The notes beneath the pieces were generated by a model. That model saw nothing but the letters and a program-made list of their open reading frames with translations, was not told the DNA's origin and did no database searches. A program made the translations under genes and the position numbers. Positions 7,849-19,808 of a DNA stretch of 20,553 nucleotides are shown here, in pieces. How positions within the stretch are numbered: the stretch's first letter is position 1; each line of letters opens with the position of its first letter. Source of the stretch: a virus; IMG/VR virus record IMGVR_UViG_3300027840_000013, positions 1 through 20,553 of that record; one strand, given 5' to 3'.

Positions 7849-8304
7849 ATTAGCAAAAGAAAACTAATACTCTTACTTGCAGCGCTTTGTGCACTGTTAG
7901 TAGCAGGAAGAGTAATCGGAGCAAGTTTAACCAATCAAACACAAACAAAAATCGTTGAAACGACCCAGAGTACCCCAGAACCTATAAAAACGCCACAGAG
8001 CGAGCCTGTGAAGGTTACAGAGCCTATTAAACCAGTTGTTGTGGACACCAATGCGTGCCTCACAGCAATGCGTCAGGTATTTCCACAAGAAACTTGGCAG
8101 GTAGGTGAGGCCATTATGAGAGCTGAAAGTGGGCTAAACCCAAATGCGGTATCTAGTACCAATGACCACGGTTGTTGGCAGATACACGACTGGGCCTTAT
8201 ACGACCCACTAGAAAACACTAAAGTAGCGTACTACAAGTACACTCACTACGGATGGCAACCCTGGAGCGTATATAACTCAGGAGCTTACCTAAAATGGCT
8301 TTAA
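7849..8304 (+). CDS. Secreted lysozyme-like (SLT-fold) muralytic protein, probable ATT start
   Basis: The mature domain (residues about 68-151) carries AIMRAESGLNPNAVS, with the likely catalytic Glu near residue 93, then DHGCWQIHDWAL, the pattern of lytic transglycosylase/lysozyme-like domains. Two cysteines (Cys70 and the one in GCWQ) may pair. No ATG/GTG/TTG start lies between the upstream in-frame stop (7831-7833) and the domain except an internal GTG at 8008. Reading from ATT 7849, which follows AGAGAGAGGG, gives SKRK, a strong hydrophobic stretch (LILLLAALCALLVAG) and an AxS-like cleavage region, i.e. a convincing signal peptide, then a Thr/Pro-rich linker. The GTG start would remove the signal. 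It is encoded with early genes, far from the lysis genes. Confidence 0.75.
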   Translation: MSKRKLILLLAALCALLVAGRVIGASLTNQTQTKIVETTQSTPEPIKTPQSEPVKVTEPIKPVVVDTNACLTAMRQVFPQETWQVGEAIMRAESGLNPNAVSSTNDHGCWQIHDWALYDPLENTKVAYYKYTHYGWQPWSVYNSGAYLKWL

Positions 8305-8363
8305 TATGTTGGGCGATAACATTCTACATAGTCTGGGGACTGATGAACTTAAAAACTACATAG
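8295..8363 (+). CDS. Possible 22-residue membrane peptide
   Basis: A tiny frame encoding MALICWAITFYIVWGLMNLK plus TT, almost entirely one hydrophobic helix. Its ATG overlaps the end of the lysozyme-like gene by 10 bases and a GGAG lies 10 bases upstream. The stop codon touches the GGAGGG site of the next gene. Very short, but the hydrophobic pattern and coupling argue that it may be translated. Confidence 0.4.
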   Translation: MALICWAITFYIVWGLMNLKTT

Positions 8364-8372
8364 GAGGGTAAA

Positions 8373-8741
8373 TTGACTGATAGGGCAAGACTCAAGAAAA
8401 AGCTTGATACCATACATTCTAAACTGATTAGAAGCATTGAAAAATCTTGCGTGGTCTGTGGATCACAAGAAATGCTACAGTGTGGACACCTTTTTACCAG
8501 AGCTGCCCTATCAACCCGTTGGGACATAGAGCCAGATGGAAATTGTCATTCTCAATGCGCCAGCTGTAATTATAGGCATGAACACGATTCGTACCCATAT
8601 AATAATTGGTACATAGAAAAGTTCTCAAAAGATAAATGGGATGAACTACATAGAAGACACAAGGCTTGTCGGAAGTTCACACTTTTAGAAATGGAAGAAA
8701 TGTGTCAAGAGTTTAAAAATCTTTTGACACAAAGCGAATAG
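8373..8741 (+). CDS. NinG/HNH-like recombination nuclease
   Basis: A 122-residue protein starting at TTG with GGAGGG a few bases upstream. A zinc-type CVVCGS motif (about residue 26) is followed by QCGHLFTRAALSTRWDIEPD and NCHSQCASCNYRHEHD. This matches the NinG/Rap family, where C..C, a central GH, RWD and QC..CN build an HNH-like fold. NinG-family proteins act on branched DNA or in recombination-dependent replication. It lies downstream of the SSB and NinB-like genes. The C-terminal 40 residues are helical and charged. Confidence 0.8.
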   Translation: MTDRARLKKKLDTIHSKLIRSIEKSCVVCGSQEMLQCGHLFTRAALSTRWDIEPDGNCHSQCASCNYRHEHDSYPYNNWYIEKFSKDKWDELHRRHKACRKFTLLEMEEMCQEFKNLLTQSE

Positions 8742-8752
8742 TTTAGTATAAT
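8724..8752 (+). promoter_or_regulatory. Consensus sigma70 promoter
   Basis: TTGACA (8724-8729) and TATAAT (8747-8752) are both perfect consensus with an ideal 17-base spacer. The -35 box lies inside the end of the NinG-like gene. The start point would be near 8759, giving a leader of under 20 bases before the small membrane gene, and the transcript would run on into the GC-rich block. It is the strongest promoter visible in the window. Confidence 0.85.
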
Positions 8753-8774
8753 AAAATAAATTAGTGGAGGGAAC

Positions 8775-8954
8775 ATGTCAGATCACTATTTAGAAGAAGA
8801 ACCAAAAGACTGGGTAACAGTCATACACGACACTTTTACAAAACACACTTGTTTTGCAATGATAGTAGCACTCATACTAGGATTTATCTTGAAGCCAGCC
8901 ATTATTGGACTGGTATTTTTGTTTTGGTTATTATGTGTAGCTTGGAGCTTATAG
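8775..8954 (+). CDS. Small membrane protein
   Basis: A 59-residue protein with an acidic N-terminus (MSDHYLEEEPKDW) and a hydrophobic C-terminal half (about 27-58: FAMIVALILGFILKPAIIGL and beyond) that could form one long helix or a short hairpin around the Lys-Pro pair. The ATG follows GGAGGG. It lies directly behind the consensus promoter and is the last AT-rich gene before the GC-rich block. Strong expression is predicted. Role unknown; host-membrane functions such as exclusion are possible. Confidence 0.72.
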   Translation: MSDHYLEEEPKDWVTVIHDTFTKHTCFAMIVALILGFILKPAIIGLVFLFWLLCVAWSL

Positions 8955-8981
8955 GAGAGACTACGACTATTGTCTAACTAT

Positions 8982-9041
8982 GTTGGGGCGATGCATAACC
9001 CCAACCTAGATGGCCAGAAGCCATAGAAACTTTAATCTAGG
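8982..9041 (+). promoter_or_regulatory. Tandem hairpins in the leader of the GC-rich block
   Basis: GTTGGGG (8982-8988) pairs with CCCCAAC (8999-9005). Directly adjoining it, CCTAGAT (9005-9011) can pair with ATCTAGG (9035-9041), enclosing an alternative inner hairpin ATGGC (9010-9014) with GCCAT (9020-9024). The last strand runs into the GGGAGG ribosome binding site (9040-9045) of the first gene, so folding could limit translation. No T-tract follows, so these are not simple terminators. Confidence 0.55.
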
Positions 9042-9051
9042 GAGGCGTGAC

Positions 9052-9372
9052 ATGGATTACCAACAAGAGTTGGATAAGGCAGTCCGTCTCCACAAAGCTC
9101 TCCTTGTTGTACACAAGGGGTGTGCTGGACTGCGACCCGAATACGAACAGCTCAATGCTGTCGTATGTAACTTCGTTCTGGGCTTCGTGCCTGTCATCAA
9201 CGTCCAGTGCCCTCACGACAAGGACTGTCAGGTAACAGGGCGTGAGACGTTCGGTGGCTTGGAAGACCTCATAGAACAGCTTGAAGTCATCATCTGGTGG
9301 CTCCAACTGGAGGTCTGCTACGAGACTGAGACCGACTACGACGACCTTTCAACCACGGGGGGTGATGGGTAA
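9052..9372 (+). CDS. Hypothetical acidic protein, first gene of the GC-rich block
   Basis: A 106-residue protein starting at ATG 9052, chosen because GGGAGG (9040-9045) lies just upstream; the in-frame ATG at 9010 sits inside the leader hairpins without a site. The N-terminal part is helical (QQELDKAVRLHKALLVVHKG). The middle contains CPHDKDC, and the C-terminal part is helical and very acidic (GLEDLIEQLEVIIWWLQLEV). No family recognised. The stop overlaps the next start (TAATG). Confidence 0.68.
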   Translation: MDYQQELDKAVRLHKALLVVHKGCAGLRPEYEQLNAVVCNFVLGFVPVINVQCPHDKDCQVTGRETFGGLEDLIEQLEVIIWWLQLEVCYETETDYDDLSTTGGDG

Positions 9373-9494
9373 TGTGTCCGCACATCTGGTTCTTTGCCAC
9401 TTTCGGACACATCCACATCCGCAAGTGTGCCATCTGCAACCGAGTTCAGTTCAGGACAGCCGATGACGAAGAGTGGACGGAGGTGGAGATGTGA
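9372..9494 (+). CDS. Small zinc-finger-like protein
   Basis: A 40-residue protein beginning MCPHIWFFATFGHIHIRKCA. Cys2, His4, then KCAICNR (CxxC) provide four possible zinc ligands, followed by an acidic tail. The start overlaps the previous stop and its stop overlaps the next GTG start. Composition matches the block. Short, but coupling and the metal-ligand pattern support it. Confidence 0.5.
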   Translation: MCPHIWFFATFGHIHIRKCAICNRVQFRTADDEEWTEVEM

Positions 9495-9712
9495 AGAAGA
9501 AGGAGCGGTGTAAGCTCTGTAACGACAACGCCGTTCTCACAAACCATCACCACTTCTTTCCCAAGAAGAAGCACAAGAGCAATCGCATCCACCGCATCTG
9601 TTGGCCATGCCACAAGGCGTTCCATGTCAAGGTTCGGGAATGCCTCAAGGCTTGGAAGAACGATTGCCGTAAGTGCCAGTACGCAGGCGTCTGTATGCAC
9701 TATGGGAGGTGA
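9491..9712 (+). CDS. Small HNH-type nuclease
   Basis: A 73-residue basic protein: CKLC (residues 7-10), then TNHHHFFPKKK with adjacent histidines (19-21), NRIHRICWPCHKAFH (CxxCH at 37-41, His45) and a C-terminal CRKCQYAGVC. This Cys2-HH-N-Cys2-H order is the HNH fold with structural zinc. The GTG at 9491 is chosen because GGAGG lies 7 bases upstream; a GTG 18 bases earlier is less well placed. HNH enzymes of this size may nick DNA during replication or packaging, or act as homing nucleases. In an imported block, a mobility role is worth considering (inference). Confidence 0.75.
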   Translation: MKKKERCKLCNDNAVLTNHHHFFPKKKHKSNRIHRICWPCHKAFHVKVRECLKAWKNDCRKCQYAGVCMHYGR

Positions 9713-9716
9713 TACC

Positions 9717-10040
9717 ATGAAGATATACGTAGCAGGCCCCTACACCGCCGACCCCGAGGTTTGTACCCACGTTGCCATTCTGAATGGAGACATCCTCCTT
9801 TCACTGGGCTACGCACCGTACATCCCTCACCTGACCCACTTCTGGCACAACCAGTGTCCTCACCACTACGAGACCTGGATGACGCTGGACTTTGAGTGGG
9901 TCGCATCCTGCGATGTGCTCTACAGGCTCCCTGGGGAGTCCAGTGGGGCTGACAGGGAAGTTGACCTGGCTACATCACTCGGCATCCCTGTCGTCTACTC
10001 GCTCTCCGAACTGCTGGAACGATTCCCATTGGAGGTGTGA
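9717..10040 (+). CDS. Nucleoside 2-deoxyribosyltransferase-like protein (DUF4406 type)
   Basis: A 107-residue protein that begins MKIYVAGPYTADPE, the signature start of the deoxyribosyltransferase-like fold. CDVLYRLPGESSGADREVDL carries the conserved acidic and Gly/Ser active-site segment, and ATSLGIPVVY follows. Members of the wider fold transfer or hydrolyse N-glycosidic bonds of nucleosides and nucleotides. Phage copies are thought to act in nucleotide metabolism or base modification. The ATG is preceded by GGGAGGTGATACC. The last codons (GAG GTG) also form the ribosome binding site of the next gene. Confidence 0.8.
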   Translation: MKIYVAGPYTADPEVCTHVAILNGDILLSLGYAPYIPHLTHFWHNQCPHHYETWMTLDFEWVASCDVLYRLPGESSGADREVDLATSLGIPVVYSLSELLERFPLEV

Positions 10041-10044
10041 GATG
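10031..10044 (+). repeat. Repeated stop/ribosome-binding/start unit (second copy 10255-10268)
   Basis: The 14-mer GGAGGTGTGAGATG occurs exactly at 10031-10044 and 10255-10268, each combining Shine-Dalgarno and start ATG; in the first copy it also supplies the stop TGA. A near copy, GGAGGCGTGACATG, lies at 9041-9054. This unit is absent from the AT-rich genes. Confidence 0.75.
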
Positions 10045-10254
10045 TACTGTGCCACGTGTGGTCAGAAGGAGACCCCCGTCAAAACCAAGCGTTTTGACAG
10101 GGATACGGGAGAGCCCGTCTACGTGGACTACTGTCTCAACCCCAACTGCGTTGTGGGCAGGCAGAACGTCTGTGGCATCAACACGGGCCACACCATCGGG
10201 TTCTTCATCGGGACCTGCAAGAACTGCGGGTTCCAGCCCTGCGACTGGTACTAG
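10042..10254 (+). CDS. Small multi-cysteine zinc-ribbon protein
   Basis: A 70-residue protein with CATC (residues 3-6), CLNPNC (about 31-36), a further Cys near 44, and CKNCGFQPC (about 59-67). This could bind one or two zinc ions. It starts within the repeated 14-base start unit and overlaps nothing. Zinc-ribbon proteins of this size are common in phage early regions and often bind nucleic acids or host RNA polymerase; no target can be deduced. Confidence 0.68.
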   Translation: MYCATCGQKETPVKTKRFDRDTGEPVYVDYCLNPNCVVGRQNVCGINTGHTIGFFIGTCKNCGFQPCDWY

Positions 10255-10265
10255 GGAGGTGTGAG

Positions 10266-10457
10266 ATGACCTTCCCTATCCCTGACAAGGAGAAGAACCC
10301 CGTCTGTGAAGAGTGCGTCAAGTTGACGCCTCACAAGGCGACATCCTGTCAGAACCCGTGCTCACATCTCGTCTCGTGGGCATCGCACCAAGCAACGGCT
10401 GACATCGTGGCTATGGCCATCAAGTCGGCACGAGCCATCCGAGAGAGCAGGGGCTAG
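10266..10457 (+). CDS. Hypothetical 63-residue Cys-containing protein
   Basis: Starts in the second copy of the 14-base start unit. N-terminal CEECVKLTPHKATSCQNPCSH offers a CxxC...CxxxCxH metal site; the C-terminal half (ATADIVAMAIKSARAIRES) is one helix. No family recognised. It is the last gene before the structured noncoding segment. Confidence 0.62.
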   Translation: MTFPIPDKEKNPVCEECVKLTPHKATSCQNPCSHLVSWASHQATADIVAMAIKSARAIRESRG

Positions 10458-10472
10458 TCTAGCCGAGCCGAA

Positions 10473-10637
10473 GGGCAGTTACCGCCTAGATGAAATGCCC
10501 CTAACCTACCAGCTTTCCAGGTTACTGGTTGAACAACAAACCTGGCTACACCGTCCTTCTCCCACATTCAGCTGACTGGCTAACATCTGGCCAGCGTGGG
10601 GGAAGGGCGACCAACCTTTATATGTCAGCAACCGCTG
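10473..10637 (+). ncRNA. Candidate structured noncoding RNA (four tandem hairpins)
   Basis: The 211-base gap 10458-10668 has no plausible gene but has dense secondary structure. Hairpins: GGGCA 10473-10477 with TGCCC 10496-10500; CCAGGTT 10517-10523 with AACCTGG 10539-10545; a long stem 10552-10565 with 10596-10609, 14 consecutive pairs including two G-U wobbles, topped by CTGGC 10576-10580 with GCCAG 10590-10594; and CAGC 10626-10629 with GCTG 10634-10637. No T-tract follows the long stem, so a simple terminator is unlikely. It could be a small regulatory RNA, a processing site, or a leader controlling the phosphoesterase gene. No known RNA family was recognised. Confidence 0.5.
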
Positions 10638-10668
10638 GCTCCACTAAGGCAAAGTAAGGAGGAAGACT

Positions 10669-11790
10669 ATGCCAATCAACTGGAGCGATGAGATGAAGAA
10701 CGAACTCGTCTCGTCCGACAACCTGCAAGAGTTTGCAGACAAGTACGGTCTGTCGTTCGCAAACGTAGACCGCAAGAGACGCAAGTTGCGTGCCAAGACC
10801 AAGCCCGTTGACGGACCGTCATCTATCGTTCGGTATCTCTCAAGGGGTCGTACTGTCGCTGAACTGGAAGACAAGGGTATCTACCTTGACGACCTGGACA
10901 TTGACGGCTACGAACTCTACGAGACCCAGAACAACCGCTACGAGAAGGTCTACCTCTTGTTTGCCAAGCCCACCGAAGAGCTCGTCCTTCAGGACAAGAC
11001 GTGGACTTACAAGCAGGCGGTTGACCCTGACGGCAACGCCCAACCCTACTACATGATGCAGATGCAGGGAGACTTCGACAAGCTCAAGATAGTCCCCCTC
11101 GCAGACGTGCATTACGGAGCCAGGGCGTGCATGGTTGACAAGTTCAAGGAGTACGTCAACTGGATTGCCGCCAACGACAACGTGTTCTGCTTCATCTCGG
11201 GAGACCTCTTCGAGAACTCTCACGGAGACTCCAACAAGGGTCTCTCCCACTACGAGCAGGATGTCCGCCCCCAAGACCAGGTGACTGACATGTGTCGGTT
11301 GCTCGCACCCATCGCCCATAAGATACTGTGGGCCATCCCCGGCAATCATGAGGACCGCTCACGAACGAGGGACTACGACCCTCTGGAGCGTCTCTGTGAA
11401 CGCCTGCACGTACCTTACAGCTACGAACCCATCTTCGTTGACCTGCTGTGGAAGGGGAATGTCTTCTCTTTCCACGACCAGCACGGTCGTGCGGGTGGTC
11501 AGACCAAGGGTGGCAAGATGAACGCTGCCGCTCGTCCCCAGGAGATGCAAGAGCACATCATGTTCACCGTGATGGCTCACGTGCATGACGGGGACGTCTC
11601 AAGGAACACCAGGATTTGTCGCAATCGTGTGGACTTCTACCTGGAGTTCCGCAAGCAGTACATAATCGTCTGCCCTTCGTTCTTCGGCTACTTCGGTAGC
11701 TACGCAAGCAAGGCTGGCTACAAGCCAGGTTCGTACGGTTCCATCAACATGGACCTGTTCGCCAACGGGGACTACCACGCCAATTCGTAG
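10669..11790 (+). CDS. Calcineurin-like metallophosphoesterase with N-terminal HTH-like region
   Basis: A 373-residue protein preceded by AAGGAGGAAGACT. All five metal-binding motifs of the calcineurin-like phosphoesterase fold are present in order: DVH (146-148), GDLFE (178-182), GNHED (225-229), HDQHG (269-273) and AHVHDGD (303-309). Such enzymes use two metal ions to cut phosphoester bonds; phage members are often nucleases or phosphatases related to SbcD/Mre11. The first 45 residues (LQEFADKYGLSFANVDRKRR) resemble a helix-turn-helix, suggesting DNA binding. It is the largest gene of the GC-rich block and lies behind the structured RNA. A terminator-like hairpin follows. The substrate is unknown. 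Confidence 0.85.
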   Translation: MPINWSDEMKNELVSSDNLQEFADKYGLSFANVDRKRRKLRAKTKPVDGPSSIVRYLSRGRTVAELEDKGIYLDDLDIDGYELYETQNNRYEKVYLLFAKPTEELVLQDKTWTYKQAVDPDGNAQPYYMMQMQGDFDKLKIVPLADVHYGARACMVDKFKEYVNWIAANDNVFCFISGDLFENSHGDSNKGLSHYEQDVRPQDQVTDMCRLLAPIAHKILWAIPGNHEDRSRTRDYDPLERLCERLHVPYSYEPIFVDLLWKGNVFSFHDQHGRAGGQTKGGKMNAAARPQEMQEHIMFTVMAHVHDGDVSRNTRICRNRVDFYLEFRKQYIIVCPSFFGYFGSYASKAGYKPGSYGSINMDLFANGDYHANS

Positions 11791-11798
11791 AGGCTCCA

Positions 11799-11823
11799 GG
11801 GGCTGCCTACAAAGCCCCCTTTC
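11799..11823 (+). terminator. Terminator-like hairpin at the right end of the GC-rich block
   Basis: GGGGCT (11799-11804) and AGCCCC (11813-11818) form a perfect 6-base GC-rich stem with an 8-base loop, followed by CTTTC. The T-run is short, so termination may be partial. AT-rich DNA resumes immediately afterwards. Confidence 0.5.
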
Positions 11824-11842
11824 AATAATTAAAGGAGGAATT

Positions 11843-12052
11843 ATGATAACAGAAGCTGAACAAGACCTAGAAAGAATAAGATTTACATCAGACAAACTCT
11901 TAGATGTAAAATATCGTGAAGGCAATAAGGAACATGGTGGAGACCTAATGACCATGACAGTAAGGGAATATATAACCAATGCCTTAGACGAGAATACTGA
12001 CCAAAGGGTTTATCTATTAAAAGCTCTTGAGGCATTAAATGATAAAAATTAA
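11843..12052 (+). CDS. Small EHGG-motif phage protein (MazG-like helical fold possible)
   Basis: A 69-residue helical protein preceded by AAAGGAGGAATT. KYREGNKEHGGDLMTMTVRE followed by DENTDQRVYLLKALEAL resembles a family of short phage proteins in which KxxxGxxEHGG is followed by a conserved acidic helix, related to all-alpha nucleotide pyrophosphatase (MazG-type) folds. If so it may sense or hydrolyse nucleotides. Composition is again AT-rich, matching the main phage genome. Family assignment is moderate only. Confidence 0.6.
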   Translation: MITEAEQDLERIRFTSDKLLDVKYREGNKEHGGDLMTMTVREYITNALDENTDQRVYLLKALEALNDKN

Positions 12053-12806: not shown

Positions 12807-13733
12807 CTAAAAGTTTTTAGGATCTGTTGGATTATTGAGTCCAGCAAGTACCGAGATAATCGCTGTTACTGTCCCAACTACGGTCTTAATAAGGTCTGTT
12901 TGTCCTGGTAGTACGAATACTGCCAATGTTGACAATATAGCAATAAGTTCAATTATCACTACTGGGGATTTAAATCTGTCTAATATTTCTTTCACATCTA
13001 CTCCTATCTTTATCTCTGTGGCCTGCGTAGAGGCCTCTTCTTGGCGTTTTTTCTCCTCCTCGGCTATCCTTAGTCGTTCTGCTTCTAGCAGGGCTTTCTC
13101 TTCTTGTGCTTTACGTTCATTCTCTATCCTTTCGGCTTCTAATTTATCAGCCAATTCTTTTTCAAGTCTAGCCTGTTCTTCGGCTAGTTTCTTTTGCTCT
13201 TCGGCTATGCGTTGTGCTTCAGCCTTAGCTTTAGCGTCTGCTTCTGCCTGTGCCTTTTCAGCAGCGATACGCTTTTCTTCAGCGAGTCTAGCCTGTTGAG
13301 CGTTATAAGCATCTTGGTCAAAGTTCACATCTTGGTTTGGTCTTAGGACTCCTAGAAATGAAGTATAGTTATGAGACACATACCTAGATGGTTTAGAACC
13401 ATCCCATGGGGAGTCCCAGTTTTGGTCAAGAGAGACAAAGTAATTAGTATTACCCTCTCCTGTACAGATAGCTATATGACCATAAGTGCCCATATTCCAA
13501 ACAGCCACATCACCACGCTTCGGTACGAAGCTAGGGGTGTTGGCTATTTTAGTAAAGGCTGAAGTGTTGTATGAGTTCCAGGTGTCCTTAGCGGCAGGAG
13601 CACCCTTTACGGTTACTTTTAAGTAGTTCCGTTGGTAGTCTGCGTATAAGTCCATACATTGAGCACCGTAGGATTTATCGTCATCTATGTACTTACCAGC
13701 CCTTTCGCTGAAGAATCTGTCTGCTATTGTCAT
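12807..13733 (-). CDS. CHAP endolysin fused through a coiled coil to a holin-like membrane tail
   Basis: A 308-residue protein in three parts. Residues 1-135: a CHAP amidase/peptidase domain, with YGAQCMDLY (Cys26), KRGDVAVWN and GTYGHIAIC (His86). Residues about 140-237: a long Ala/Glu/Lys/Arg coiled coil. Residues about 250-308: LDRFKSPVVIIELIAI and a second hydrophobic stretch, ending ISVLAGLNNPTDPKNF, which resembles the C-terminal two-helix region and NNPT(D) ending of phage holins of the Phage_holin_1 group. Endolysin and holin are normally separate proteins. No signal peptide is seen at the N-terminus. It overlaps the upstream 44-residue gene at one base. CHAP domain is certain; the holin resemblance is good but unproven. 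Confidence 0.85.
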   Translation of the reverse strand: MTIADRFFSERAGKYIDDDKSYGAQCMDLYADYQRNYLKVTVKGAPAAKDTWNSYNTSAFTKIANTPSFVPKRGDVAVWNMGTYGHIAICTGEGNTNYFVSLDQNWDSPWDGSKPSRYVSHNYTSFLGVLRPNQDVNFDQDAYNAQQARLAEEKRIAAEKAQAEADAKAKAEAQRIAEEQKKLAEEQARLEKELADKLEAERIENERKAQEEKALLEAERLRIAEEEKKRQEEASTQATEIKIGVDVKEILDRFKSPVVIIELIAILSTLAVFVLPGQTDLIKTVVGTVTAIISVLAGLNNPTDPKNF

Positions 13734-13867
13734 TAGTCCTCCTTTATGTCTTTTTCTACATTAAATAATTTACGGTCCTTGAACTCTTCTTGCTTACTGT
13801 CGTTCCAATTAAAGGTGGGTCTAAGGTATCCGCAGACTCTGCTATAAATCTCGCATTTTGTTCTCAT
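13733..13867 (-). CDS. 44-residue stand-alone NrdD-like glycyl-radical C-terminal peptide
   Basis: The reading frame is open to 13957, but ATG 13867 has AAGGA upstream and its ATG overlaps the previous stop (ATGA). The peptide contains YSRVCGYLRPTFNWN followed by SKQEEFKDR. The C-terminal radical domain of class III ribonucleotide reductase (NrdD; E. coli RVCGYLG...PFN.GKQEEV) has the same order, with the glycine of CGYL being the radical site, here Gly13. The rest of NrdD is absent and not in this window. It lies between the coiled-coil membrane protein and the endolysin. It may be a spare radical domain, by analogy with GrcA (YfiD) for pyruvate formate-lyase, or a metal-binding peptide. Motif match is strong, function speculative. 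Confidence 0.65.
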   Translation of the reverse strand: MRTKCEIYSRVCGYLRPTFNWNDSKQEEFKDRKLFNVEKDIKED

Positions 13868-14169
13868 ATTAAATGTCCTTGTATGAGATATGATAATATC
13901 CCGATTACTGCTGTTATTATTGCAACGATGAATATCTTTACGAACCAAGCTACCCAAGCCGGAGCGTATTTCTTGTCGGCTACATCAAAAAAAGAATCAA
14001 GCTTCGCCTCAAAACGAGTGAACCTATCGTCTACTTTTTCATCTAGGCGTCTGACATCGTCTTTGAGGTCGCATATTTCTTTCATAAGTCTTGACTCCAA
14101 TTTATCTGCATCTGACTTTCTGTCGGATACAGCTCTTTCTAAGTTTGCTTGTACTTGGTCTGCTCTCAT
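13864..14169 (-). CDS. XhlA-like coiled-coil membrane protein (lysis accessory / holin candidate)
   Basis: A 101-residue protein. Residues 1-65 are a highly charged coiled coil (LESRLMKEICDLKDDVRRLD and onward), followed by AWVAWFVKIFIVAIITAVIG (about 71-90), a single membrane helix, and a short polar tail. This soluble coiled coil plus C-terminal helix is the layout of XhlA/haemolysin-type proteins in phage lysis cassettes and of some holins. Located two genes before the endolysin, it should work with it. An AGGA lies a few bases before the ATG. Confidence 0.75.
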   Translation of the reverse strand: MRADQVQANLERAVSDRKSDADKLESRLMKEICDLKDDVRRLDEKVDDRFTRFEAKLDSFFDVADKKYAPAWVAWFVKIFIVAIITAVIGILSYLIQGHLI

Positions 14170-17892: not shown

Positions 17893-18714
17893 TTATGTCC
17901 TTATAAATAAACAATTTTCATTTGTTGCTGTTTCAGCGTACCTACGCCATGTTTTTGCTTCGTTGTCCCAACTCATATCTGCCATGTGTAGTAGGGCTTC
18001 TTTGAACTCAGGATTGCCTAGAATTGCTTGTAGGCAGTAGTTTCGGGCTTCGTCACCTCGTTGGAGATTAAATAGGCATTTGGAAGCTCGTAGGTTAGCG
18101 TCTGCTATCTCATATCTCCATGTGCCTACCTTTATATATGCTTTATATTCCCTTAAAGCCTTCTCCCACTCGCCCCTGTCAAAGTATTCTTGGGCTAGAT
18201 AATACTTATTTCTAACAGATTTATCCTTTAGTAGAATCCTTAGATTTCTATCTGGGTCTACTTCGTGCTGGGGTGATTTTCTGTATCTTATTTCTATATT
18301 GGTTTTCTTGGGGTTGCATACGACATATTCATGTACTTTACCCTGATACCTAAGCCCTTTTTTGAAGATTCTTGGTCCTCTGTGAAAACTTGTATCACTC
18401 CAAGATACCTTTACTTCTAATGCGTCATAATTGTCATCTAGTTCTATCTCGCTGACAGGTGTTAAAAGTATCTCGTCAGCGTCTATTATTAGATTCCAAT
18501 CCCCATTTGATTTTGAAAGGGCGTAGTTTCTAGCGTCAGAGAAGTCATCTTTCCACTTATGGTGGTAGACTTTTCCATACTTAGAAGCTATCTCTACAGT
18601 TTTATCAGTAGATCCAGTATCTACGATTATTATCTCGTCTATACCCTTGAGTGATTTAAGACACTCTTTAAGCATAGCCTCTTCGTTTTTAACTATTAAA
18701 CAAGCTGATAGCAT
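17893..18714 (-). CDS. Family 2 glycosyltransferase with TPR-like C-terminus
   Basis: A 273-residue protein. LSACLIVKNEE (2-12) starts the GT-A nucleotide-binding fold, IIVDTGSTDKT (29-39) follows, and IIDADE (76-81) supplies the DxD metal site. From about residue 155 the chain becomes helical with TPR-like repeats (YYLAQEYFDRGEWEKALREY, then LRASKCLFNLQRGDEARNYC). This matches SunS/SPbeta-type glycosyltransferases, which transfer sugars onto protein or peptide. It lies inside the fibre cluster, immediately downstream of the collagen-like fibre gene, so a virion protein is the most likely acceptor (inference). The sugar enzymes at 19-1745 may make the donor. Confidence 0.88.
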   Translation of the reverse strand: MLSACLIVKNEEAMLKECLKSLKGIDEIIIVDTGSTDKTVEIASKYGKVYHHKWKDDFSDARNYALSKSNGDWNLIIDADEILLTPVSEIELDDNYDALEVKVSWSDTSFHRGPRIFKKGLRYQGKVHEYVVCNPKKTNIEIRYRKSPQHEVDPDRNLRILLKDKSVRNKYYLAQEYFDRGEWEKALREYKAYIKVGTWRYEIADANLRASKCLFNLQRGDEARNYCLQAILGNPEFKEALLHMADMSWDNEAKTWRRYAETATNENCLFIRT

Positions 18715-18722
18715 GATTCCCC

Positions 18723-19808
18723 CTAAGATGCTTCATATGTTCCTACAAGTATCATTTTGTCACTAGCTGCCCAAGTAAATGGTGTACTAGCACCGAGATT
18801 CGCATAACCAGTCCAAGTACCATTGGCTAGTGGTGCAACTGGGTATATTTTATTAGTAATTATGTCTGTTGCTCCCATCCACCAACTTCCATTAGCGTCT
18901 AGGAAGAATGCAGTACCAGTTACATGGTCTGTGGCGTTATTAGCAGGTGTTGCAAATGCGGCAGCTCCCACAGAGATGCTGGTACCACCGAGAGTAACGA
19001 CAATACTGTAGTGAACGGTTTTACCGATTTGAGTCCACCTAGCAACGACAGTTCCAGTTGAGCCAACATTTAGATTAGTAAGTCCTGGATTCCATGTTGC
19101 CCATGCACCCCCAGGCTGACCAGCAGTAGTGGCTAACTTGGCGTTATTAACTACAGCATCTAGTGTCCATGTAGCGCCAGAAGAAGATACTGTTATATCA
19201 CCCTTATCTCCATCTGCTATCGTTCCAGTTGGTCCAGTAGGACCTGTGGCACCGGCAGTTCCCTGAGTTCCCTGAGACCCTTGCGTTCCCTGTGTCCCCT
19301 GAGACCCCTGAGTCCCAGTAGCACCTACAGTACCTTGAGTGCCTTGAATACCCTGAGTACCTTGCGTGCCTTGAGACCCTTGTGGTCCAGTTGGGCCAGC
19401 AACGGTTGAAGTTGCACCAGTCGGTCCTGTTGCTCCGATGGTACCCTGACTGCCTTGTGGACCAGTGGCTCCTGCCGTACCCTGTGTGCCTTGTATTCCC
19501 TGTGTTCCCTGTATTCCTTGAGTTCCCTGACTTCCCTGAATACCAGTAGGACCAGTAGGCCCAGTAACAGTAGAATCGGCTCCAGTTGCTCCGGTTGGGC
19601 CAGTAGGTCCAGTACCAGAAGCTCCAGTGGGTCCTGTAGGACCAGTTACACCTGCACCTGTTGGTCCAGTTATTCCTACTCCCGTAGGTCCAGTTGGGCC
19701 AGTTGGACCAGTATCACCAACACCTGGACCTGTTGGACCCGTAGGTCCCGTTGCTCCATCTATGCCATCTCGGCCTTGTTCTACAATTTTAGCGAATACT
19801 CTTGTCAT
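18723..19808 (-). CDS. Collagen-like phage fibre protein
   Basis: A 361-residue protein. A short N-terminal anchor ([18 protein letters not shown]) is followed by about 180 residues of Gly-X-Y triplets, first GPT-rich, then GTQ/GIQ/GSQ-rich, which would form a collagen triple helix. The C-terminal 155 residues begin [18 protein letters not shown] and contain [13 protein letters not shown] and [19 protein letters not shown], a beta-rich trimeric tip domain widespread in tail fibres. Thr-rich triplets are possible glycosylation sites, and a glycosyltransferase gene follows. The gene overlaps the upstream reading frame by 20 bases. Confidence 0.9.

Follow-up and report, generated by a model that had tools for sequence, protein, structure and literature searches.

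The window, by which we mean the whole 20,553-base viral record analysed here, carries on its minus strand a 44-codon frame lying between a holin-like gene and an endolysin gene. The features of this locus, in the direction of reading, are:

13876..13880, minus strand: Shine-Dalgarno-like AAGGA, 8 nt 5' of the peptide ATG (from the sequence)
13864..14169, minus strand: holin-like upstream neighbour, 101 aa, with a coiled coil and a C-terminal membrane span (by reading)
13864..13867, minus strand: ATGA, 4-base overlap of the holin-like stop and the peptide start (from the sequence)
13733..13867, minus strand: stand-alone NrdD glycyl-radical peptide, 44 aa; the radical glycine is residue 13 (RVCGY)
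13731..13735, minus strand: TAATG, overlap of the peptide stop and the endolysin start (from the sequence)
12807..13733, minus strand: CHAP endolysin, downstream neighbour, 308 aa (Pfam CHAP, 1.1e-8; PHROG 635 endolysin, 5.6e-32)

The peptide frame comprises 44 codons and a stop, the plus strand of the same interval contains a stop, and the AGGAGG of the endolysin sits inside the last codons of the peptide gene. The holin-like protein has weak PHROG matches only (best hemolysin, 0.015; holin, 0.052), and the C-terminal part of the endolysin is hydrophobic by reading.

An earlier note on this DNA had proposed that the 44-aa product is related to the C-terminus of NrdD, the class III ribonucleotide reductase (RNR), and profile comparison bears this out. 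Pfam NRDD (PF13597) matches the peptide with E=1.4e-9 and 37.6 bits, above the curated cut-off of 26.2, residues 4-35 aligning with positions 532-562 of 562 (the last 31) and the radical glycine falling within the match. NCBIfam TIGR02487 (NrdD) matches over positions 549-579 of 581 (E=2.8e-9), its cut-off of 326 bits being set for the whole protein and not expected to be reached by a fragment, and PHROG 487 (NrdD-like) matches with E=6.3e-5. NRDD alone was returned by a Pfam scan of the peptide up to E=10, on which ground we rejected membership of the pyruvate formate-lyase (PFL)/GrcA family; a chance motif was rejected on the strength of the Pfam NRDD and TIGR02487 matches. A phmmer search of the single peptide against the PDB found no NrdD (best match CD80, E=0.024); a 48-row profile of viral peptides found the NrdD chains 4coi (4.9e-4) and 4u3e (5.1e-4), in both cases at their C-termini. 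AlphaFold models the peptide with low confidence (mean pLDDT 69.6, pTM 0.35). Covering PF13597 532-562 only, the peptide is without the catalytic barrel, the active-site cysteines and the zinc Cys pairs and, judged by its sequence, is a part of a class III RNR enzyme and not a whole one. When the rest of the record was searched for nrdD with profiles, as the earlier note had advised, the peptide was the sole NRDD match and no NrdD core was found in the 20,553 bases; with its 44 aa and its own start, the product is thus free-standing as claimed, and the likeness drawn to GrcA/YfiD is upheld to the extent that both are small stand-alone glycyl-radical proteins.

A related record of 29.9 kb, IMGVR_UViG_3300042810_000006, was found with each of the two neighbour proteins, the motif not being used; in the best segments, its endolysin and holin-like protein are 69% and 76% identical to those of the window. 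Here the peptide has 55 aa, starts at a TTG and sits immediately 5' of the endolysin with the glycine intact, an HNH-like gene separates it from the holin-like gene, and no NrdD core was found in this 29.9-kb record.

The window's terminase is nearest to those of Flavobacterium phages (47%) and its endolysin to those of Staphylococcus phages (about 40%), both too distant for host assignment from similar phages, which we therefore rejected. Among the viral relatives, no hosts were found for L031 and L059, whose record numbers suggest prophages of isolates, nor did a search with the Sak4-like neighbour of L026 point to one. GC content is 47-54% at 8001-12000 against 38-45% elsewhere, which suggests a mosaic genome. 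A 98-aa ORF at 8008-8304 on the plus strand is lytic-transglycosylase-like by reading and a possible second lysin, and a 361-aa ORF with collagen-like G-x-x repeats occupies 18723-19808 on the minus strand, beside a glycosyltransferase gene (17893-18714).

Viral relatives of the peptide

A profile scan of viral contigs in IMG/VR confirmed at least 481 loci; it is not a census, and the best 80, which were taken further, comprise 76 stand-alone C-terminal pieces and four longer NrdDs. The radical glycine was present in 80/80 of these best loci, with GF in place of GY in one, a count favoured by the selection, which used two patterns of which one contains GY. Among the 78 records behind the 80 loci, NRDD is represented by the C-terminal part only in 74 (the extra core of G049 set aside) and by a longer NrdD in four: G028, G030, G069 (cut by the contig start) and G077 (interrupted). 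In the last, a frame of 2553 codons holds the NrdD (L088) together with long insertions that keep the frame and are probably inteins. Many of the records are fragments, and a core accompanies the C-terminal-only piece in 1/74: in G049 (187,654 b) an NrdD core spans profile positions 1-525, stopping short of the glycine, and ~69 kb separate it from the peptide (L174, L175). By reading, a TnpB-like ORF adjoins this core. Comparison of the two ends of 20 records showed direct repeats of 99-127 b in five (G004, G005, G009, G040 and G045), which look complete on this account, and no NrdD core was found in any of the five. No radical-SAM match was found in G004, G009 or G045, and 9 of the 33 records searched had one.

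An alignment of 48 viral peptides has eight invariant residues (R10, G13, Y14, P17, N22, K25, E28 and R32). Pooled pN/pS was 0.21 over 406 pairs of viral peptides, a value to be taken as a guide only because the pairs overlap and are non-independent, duplicate copies are included and the set is partly motif-selected; one pair, L030 and L074, differs by eight synonymous changes and zero others. These values are signs that the viral peptides may be under purifying selection. The claim of the earlier note hinged on the glycine and the frame being conserved among homologues; the former was retained throughout the best 80 of at least 481 loci, and the frame, kept with its glycine in the viral relatives, shows the low pN/pS of a coding sequence.

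Peptide searches of 50,697 GenBank phage records matched the same nine records. One is that of the ANMV-1 virus, whose protein AJP62049 (144 aa) is a stand-alone form, with no core in the ANMV-1 record; in MT835493 and Lak-C1 the glycine segment lies within long NrdD frames, in an Oceanotoga phage it lies within the annotated large subunit, and the remaining five are Lak-A phages.

The earlier note had also placed the peptide in a lysis cassette. This is accurate for the window, with its holin-like and CHAP endolysin neighbours, and is not general among the viral loci. Upstream (52 of 66 listed neighbours and the window's), Sak4-like genes make up 6/53 and HNH genes two; downstream (56 of 61 listed and the window's), SSB-like genes make up 4/57, RusA 3/57, the terminase large subunit three and endolysins two, the last presumably the window and its relative. 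Many of these neighbour genes are without an assigned family and the identified ones belong mostly to DNA metabolism, so that we rejected a lysis function for the peptide and regard the lysis site as a local matter. Two further arrangements were observed: at L049:4983-5564 the peptide frame runs on into what reads as lipoprotein-like sequence with LAAGC and may be fused to a spanin-like gene, and two virus records hold two glycine peptides each, G021 (L032, L043) and G022 (L035, L064).

Split and glycine-less NrdD in cells

On plasmids of Paracoccus ferrooxidans and Sulfuricurvum kujiense, an NrdD terminating past the second zinc Cys pair is followed by a small glycine protein (60 or 58 aa) and then by NrdG. 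At the sequence level, the big chain of such a split NrdD stops after the second zinc Cys pair and the glycine is on the small chain; the window peptide likewise falls after this pair and carries the glycine. A scan of cellular genomes, again not a census (best 80 of at least 509 loci), gave 67 loci in frames of at least 250 aa and 13 in shorter ones. Nine of these 13 consist of an early-ending core beside a short ORF (L091, L093, L095, L098, L106, L107, L137, L151 and L162), while L094, L096 and L159 reach the contig end and L158 is interrupted by N. An intron or intein origin of the two-chain genes was considered and provisionally rejected, since the small chains of L091 and L151 are read in a different frame that overlaps the core gene at its end, an arrangement not expected of an intron.

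Split-type genes were called from profile positions in groups that are named here by the title of their centre genome and for which genome completeness figures are absent. In the phylum of G085 (Falkowbacteria, which we take to be Patescibacteria), NRDD was found in 42/145 genomes and was split-type in 22 of the 42, with a core that stops near position 530 and a separate C-terminal match. Two chains were read in 16 of these 22, and in G319 the separate match lies on another contig and is doubtful. The phylum of G087 (Elusimicrobia) has NRDD in 57/79 genomes and split-type genes in 39 of these, with cores ending at 531-540 and 38 of the separate pieces close by. Core ends were read in two genomes (L137/L176, and L162, the latter outside the sample), and six further loci have the small chain between ORFs of ~700 aa and ~205 aa. 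For the phylum of G088 (Nanoarchaeota) the figures are 14/60 and 7/14, with one locus read (L151). Besides these, weak C-terminal NRDD matches under the cut-off (E 1e-5 to 5e-5) accompany the full-length NrdDs of G369, G378, G366 and G381 and may be further stand-alone copies.

In Elusimicrobiota, by reading, a charged, coiled-coil-like tail terminates the core, and a stretch resembling it opens the small chain. Eleven genomes of the phylum-of-G087 sample hold extra copies away from the core, and 16 such loci were fetched (L171, L172 and L297-L310), L310 holding the sole small chain detected in its genome. Of the 16, four adjoin one endolysin family, assigned by PHROG profile in L305 and L308 (5e-29 and 3e-27) and by similarity in L306 and L172 (89% and 58%); an Rz-like spanin was matched at L172 as well (7.6e-5). 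L302 adjoins an integrase; for the remaining away-from-core loci, neighbours were scanned for some only, and some of these loci look chromosomal, such as L301, which adjoins an outer-membrane transporter. The endolysin family was not found in six operon loci (L311-L316). It differs from, and is unrelated to, the CHAP endolysin of the window, and these loci thus repeat the lysis-cassette position with another endolysin family. The four genomes concerned (G417, G403, G427 and G091) have split NrdD, and the endolysin-side copies share their type of N-terminal stretch with the host small chain; phage-type copies are thereby tied to hosts with split NrdD.

A different situation was seen in the class of G082 (Desulfobacterales by title), where NRDD occurs in 105/117 genomes and 13 of these also encode, in frames of 121-177 aa, a separate match to the C-terminal part. 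Residues 1-105 of the ANMV-1 protein match all 13 loci outside the glycine segment (E <=3.6e-9, in a small local set), and this shared N-terminal part has Cys pairs and is zinc-ribbon-like by reading. Among the 12 readable genomes with the stand-alone protein, NrdD has lost its cis glycine in six (G134, G106, G124, G161, G188 and G156; loci L212, L214, L215, L209, L210 and L211) and kept it in six (G190, G155, G187, G166, G210 and G182). G106 has Arg in place of the radical glycine in an otherwise recognisable motif, G166 has the glycine after a Ser-to-Pro change, and G082 itself reads N at the site. The glycine was kept in 35/35 genomes read without the stand-alone protein, chosen from 92 NRDD-positive ones (6/12 against 0/35 losses, Fisher p = 8.6e-5, a statistic that ignores descent), and five of the six losses look alike and may represent one event. 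A stand-alone copy beside an intact NrdD has the look of a spare part and one beside a glycine-less NrdD that of an obligate subunit; both are present in this class.

Role of the phage peptide

Like the window peptide, GrcA/YfiD of E. coli and Y06I of T4 are small stand-alone glycyl-radical tails, and theirs act in trans on a larger enzyme (PMC8683613); these proteins serve PFL, are of ~14 kDa and have been shown to repair oxygen damage, whereas the window peptide is NRDD-type and 44 aa long. With class III NrdD (PF13597, TIGR02487) it shares the last ~31 positions and the radical glycine, but not the barrel, active-site cysteines or zinc Cys pairs. Closest in layout are the split cellular NrdDs (Paracoccus, Sulfuricurvum and the Falkowbacteria, Elusimicrobia and Nanoarchaeota groups), which also have a separate small glycine chain with the break after the zinc site; there the core is usually adjacent, whereas the phage record has the small chain alone. 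ANMV-1 AJP62049 and the class-of-G082 proteins are likewise stand-alone NrdD glycine segments but have a further N-terminal part. The split class II RNR NrdJa/NrdJb is also an RNR in two polypeptides (PMC9669993), of another class and with no glycyl radical.

The earlier note regarded a phage-encoded spare part for NrdD as new. A phage glycyl-radical spare part as such is known already in T4 Y06I for PFL (PMC8683613), but the NrdD version is apparently undescribed. In 2021, spare glycyl-radical parts had been validated only for PFL, others being left as speculation (PMC8683613), the class III RNRs reported in a 2024 survey are glycine-bearing ones only (PMC11528403), and phage nrdD is described as broken by introns and inteins (PMC3653736). 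Neither a stand-alone NrdD glycine peptide nor the class III RNR split seen here is described in the available portions of PMC3653736, PMC12338860, PMC8683613, PMC9669993, PMC9531940, PMC11528403, PMC4390871, PMC3019208 and PMC12363816, the search having covered few subscription papers. A detachable radical subunit, known for another enzyme, has thus apparently not been described before for NrdD.

We propose, with a probability of roughly 0.72, that this 44-aa product serves class III RNR as a glycyl-radical subunit, the phage supplying no catalytic core of its own, and the best reading is that it would act in trans on host NrdD. The host NrdD core would take the phage peptide as its radical-bearing tail, host NrdG would activate it, and dNTP synthesis would go on during infection. 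Docking, activation, radical transfer, the benefit to the phage and a fitting NrdD in the window's host are steps that we infer. The basis for the proposal is drawn from sequence comparison: homology with the tail of NrdD, retention of the glycine, the signs of purifying selection, the absence of a core from apparently complete relatives, the cellular split and the loss of the cis glycine from some NrdDs in genomes with a stand-alone glycine protein. The frequent DNA-metabolism neighbours in other viruses also speak for it.

Repair of oxygen damage by the peptide is possible; as a GrcA-like spare part, it would take the place of the tail once oxygen had cut an otherwise intact host NrdD at the glycyl radical. 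Oxygen does cut NrdD at this position (PMC3019208), and GrcA and T4 Y06I restore oxygen-cut PFL (PMC8683613). The six class-of-G082 genomes in which the stand-alone protein lies beside a glycine-intact NrdD also point this way, and count against the subunit reading, as a pure subunit model needs no cis glycine. However, the genomes of the endolysin-side copies (G417, G427, G403 and G091) have split NrdD, in which the peptide would be a plain subunit, and we consider the spare part rather unlikely for the window. A trans-acting subunit fits better than oxygen-damage repair because many cellular NrdDs are split and some are without their own glycine; whether the peptide would repair an oxygen-cut NrdD or serve a split one depends on the host.

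The phage might instead encode a split NrdD of its own, as G049 does with its core and distant peptide. The window record, being without terminal repeats at its ends, is possibly a fragment, as are most other records, and a core could therefore lie outside its 20.5 kb. A core in only 1/74 C-terminal-only records (many of them fragments, from the best 80 of at least 481 loci), and none in the 29.9-kb relative or the five apparently complete records, makes this distinctly improbable. A mimic of the subunit could act as a decoy, sequestering NrdG or blocking the host core and so shutting down host RNR, but a blocker need not keep the radical glycine and its surrounding residues, and the cellular counterparts look like enzyme parts; we deem this very improbable. 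Finally, the peptide might be a decaying remnant of a full-length phage nrdD: it equates to a C-terminal piece of NrdD, interruption is common in phage nrdD genes (PMC3653736), and the profile matches of G004, G044 and G047 extend through stop codons in the upstream direction, a point against the subunit reading since a remnant could also give this pattern. Such a remnant would hardly have its own start with a ribosome site, tight gene overlaps, a conserved frame and glycine and low pN/pS, and by eye no NrdD-like residues are present in the 60 codons upstream of seven viral peptides, those of G004, G044 and G047 included. We find decay scarcely credible, and retain the trans-acting subunit.

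More broadly, and only tentatively, phages might carry an exchangeable radical subunit of class III RNR as a mobile gene that is loaded on host NrdD cores, its domestication having permitted glycine loss and splitting of cellular NrdDs on repeated occasions in both bacteria and archaea; we regard this extension as doubtful, if possible. Taken together, the analysis brings into one picture a widespread phage family with the NrdD radical tail only, many split NrdDs, and glycine-less NrdDs accompanied by a trans copy. The natural core/peptide pairs make trans radical transfer in RNR directly testable, and phages of anaerobes may secure their DNA precursors through a 44-codon gene.
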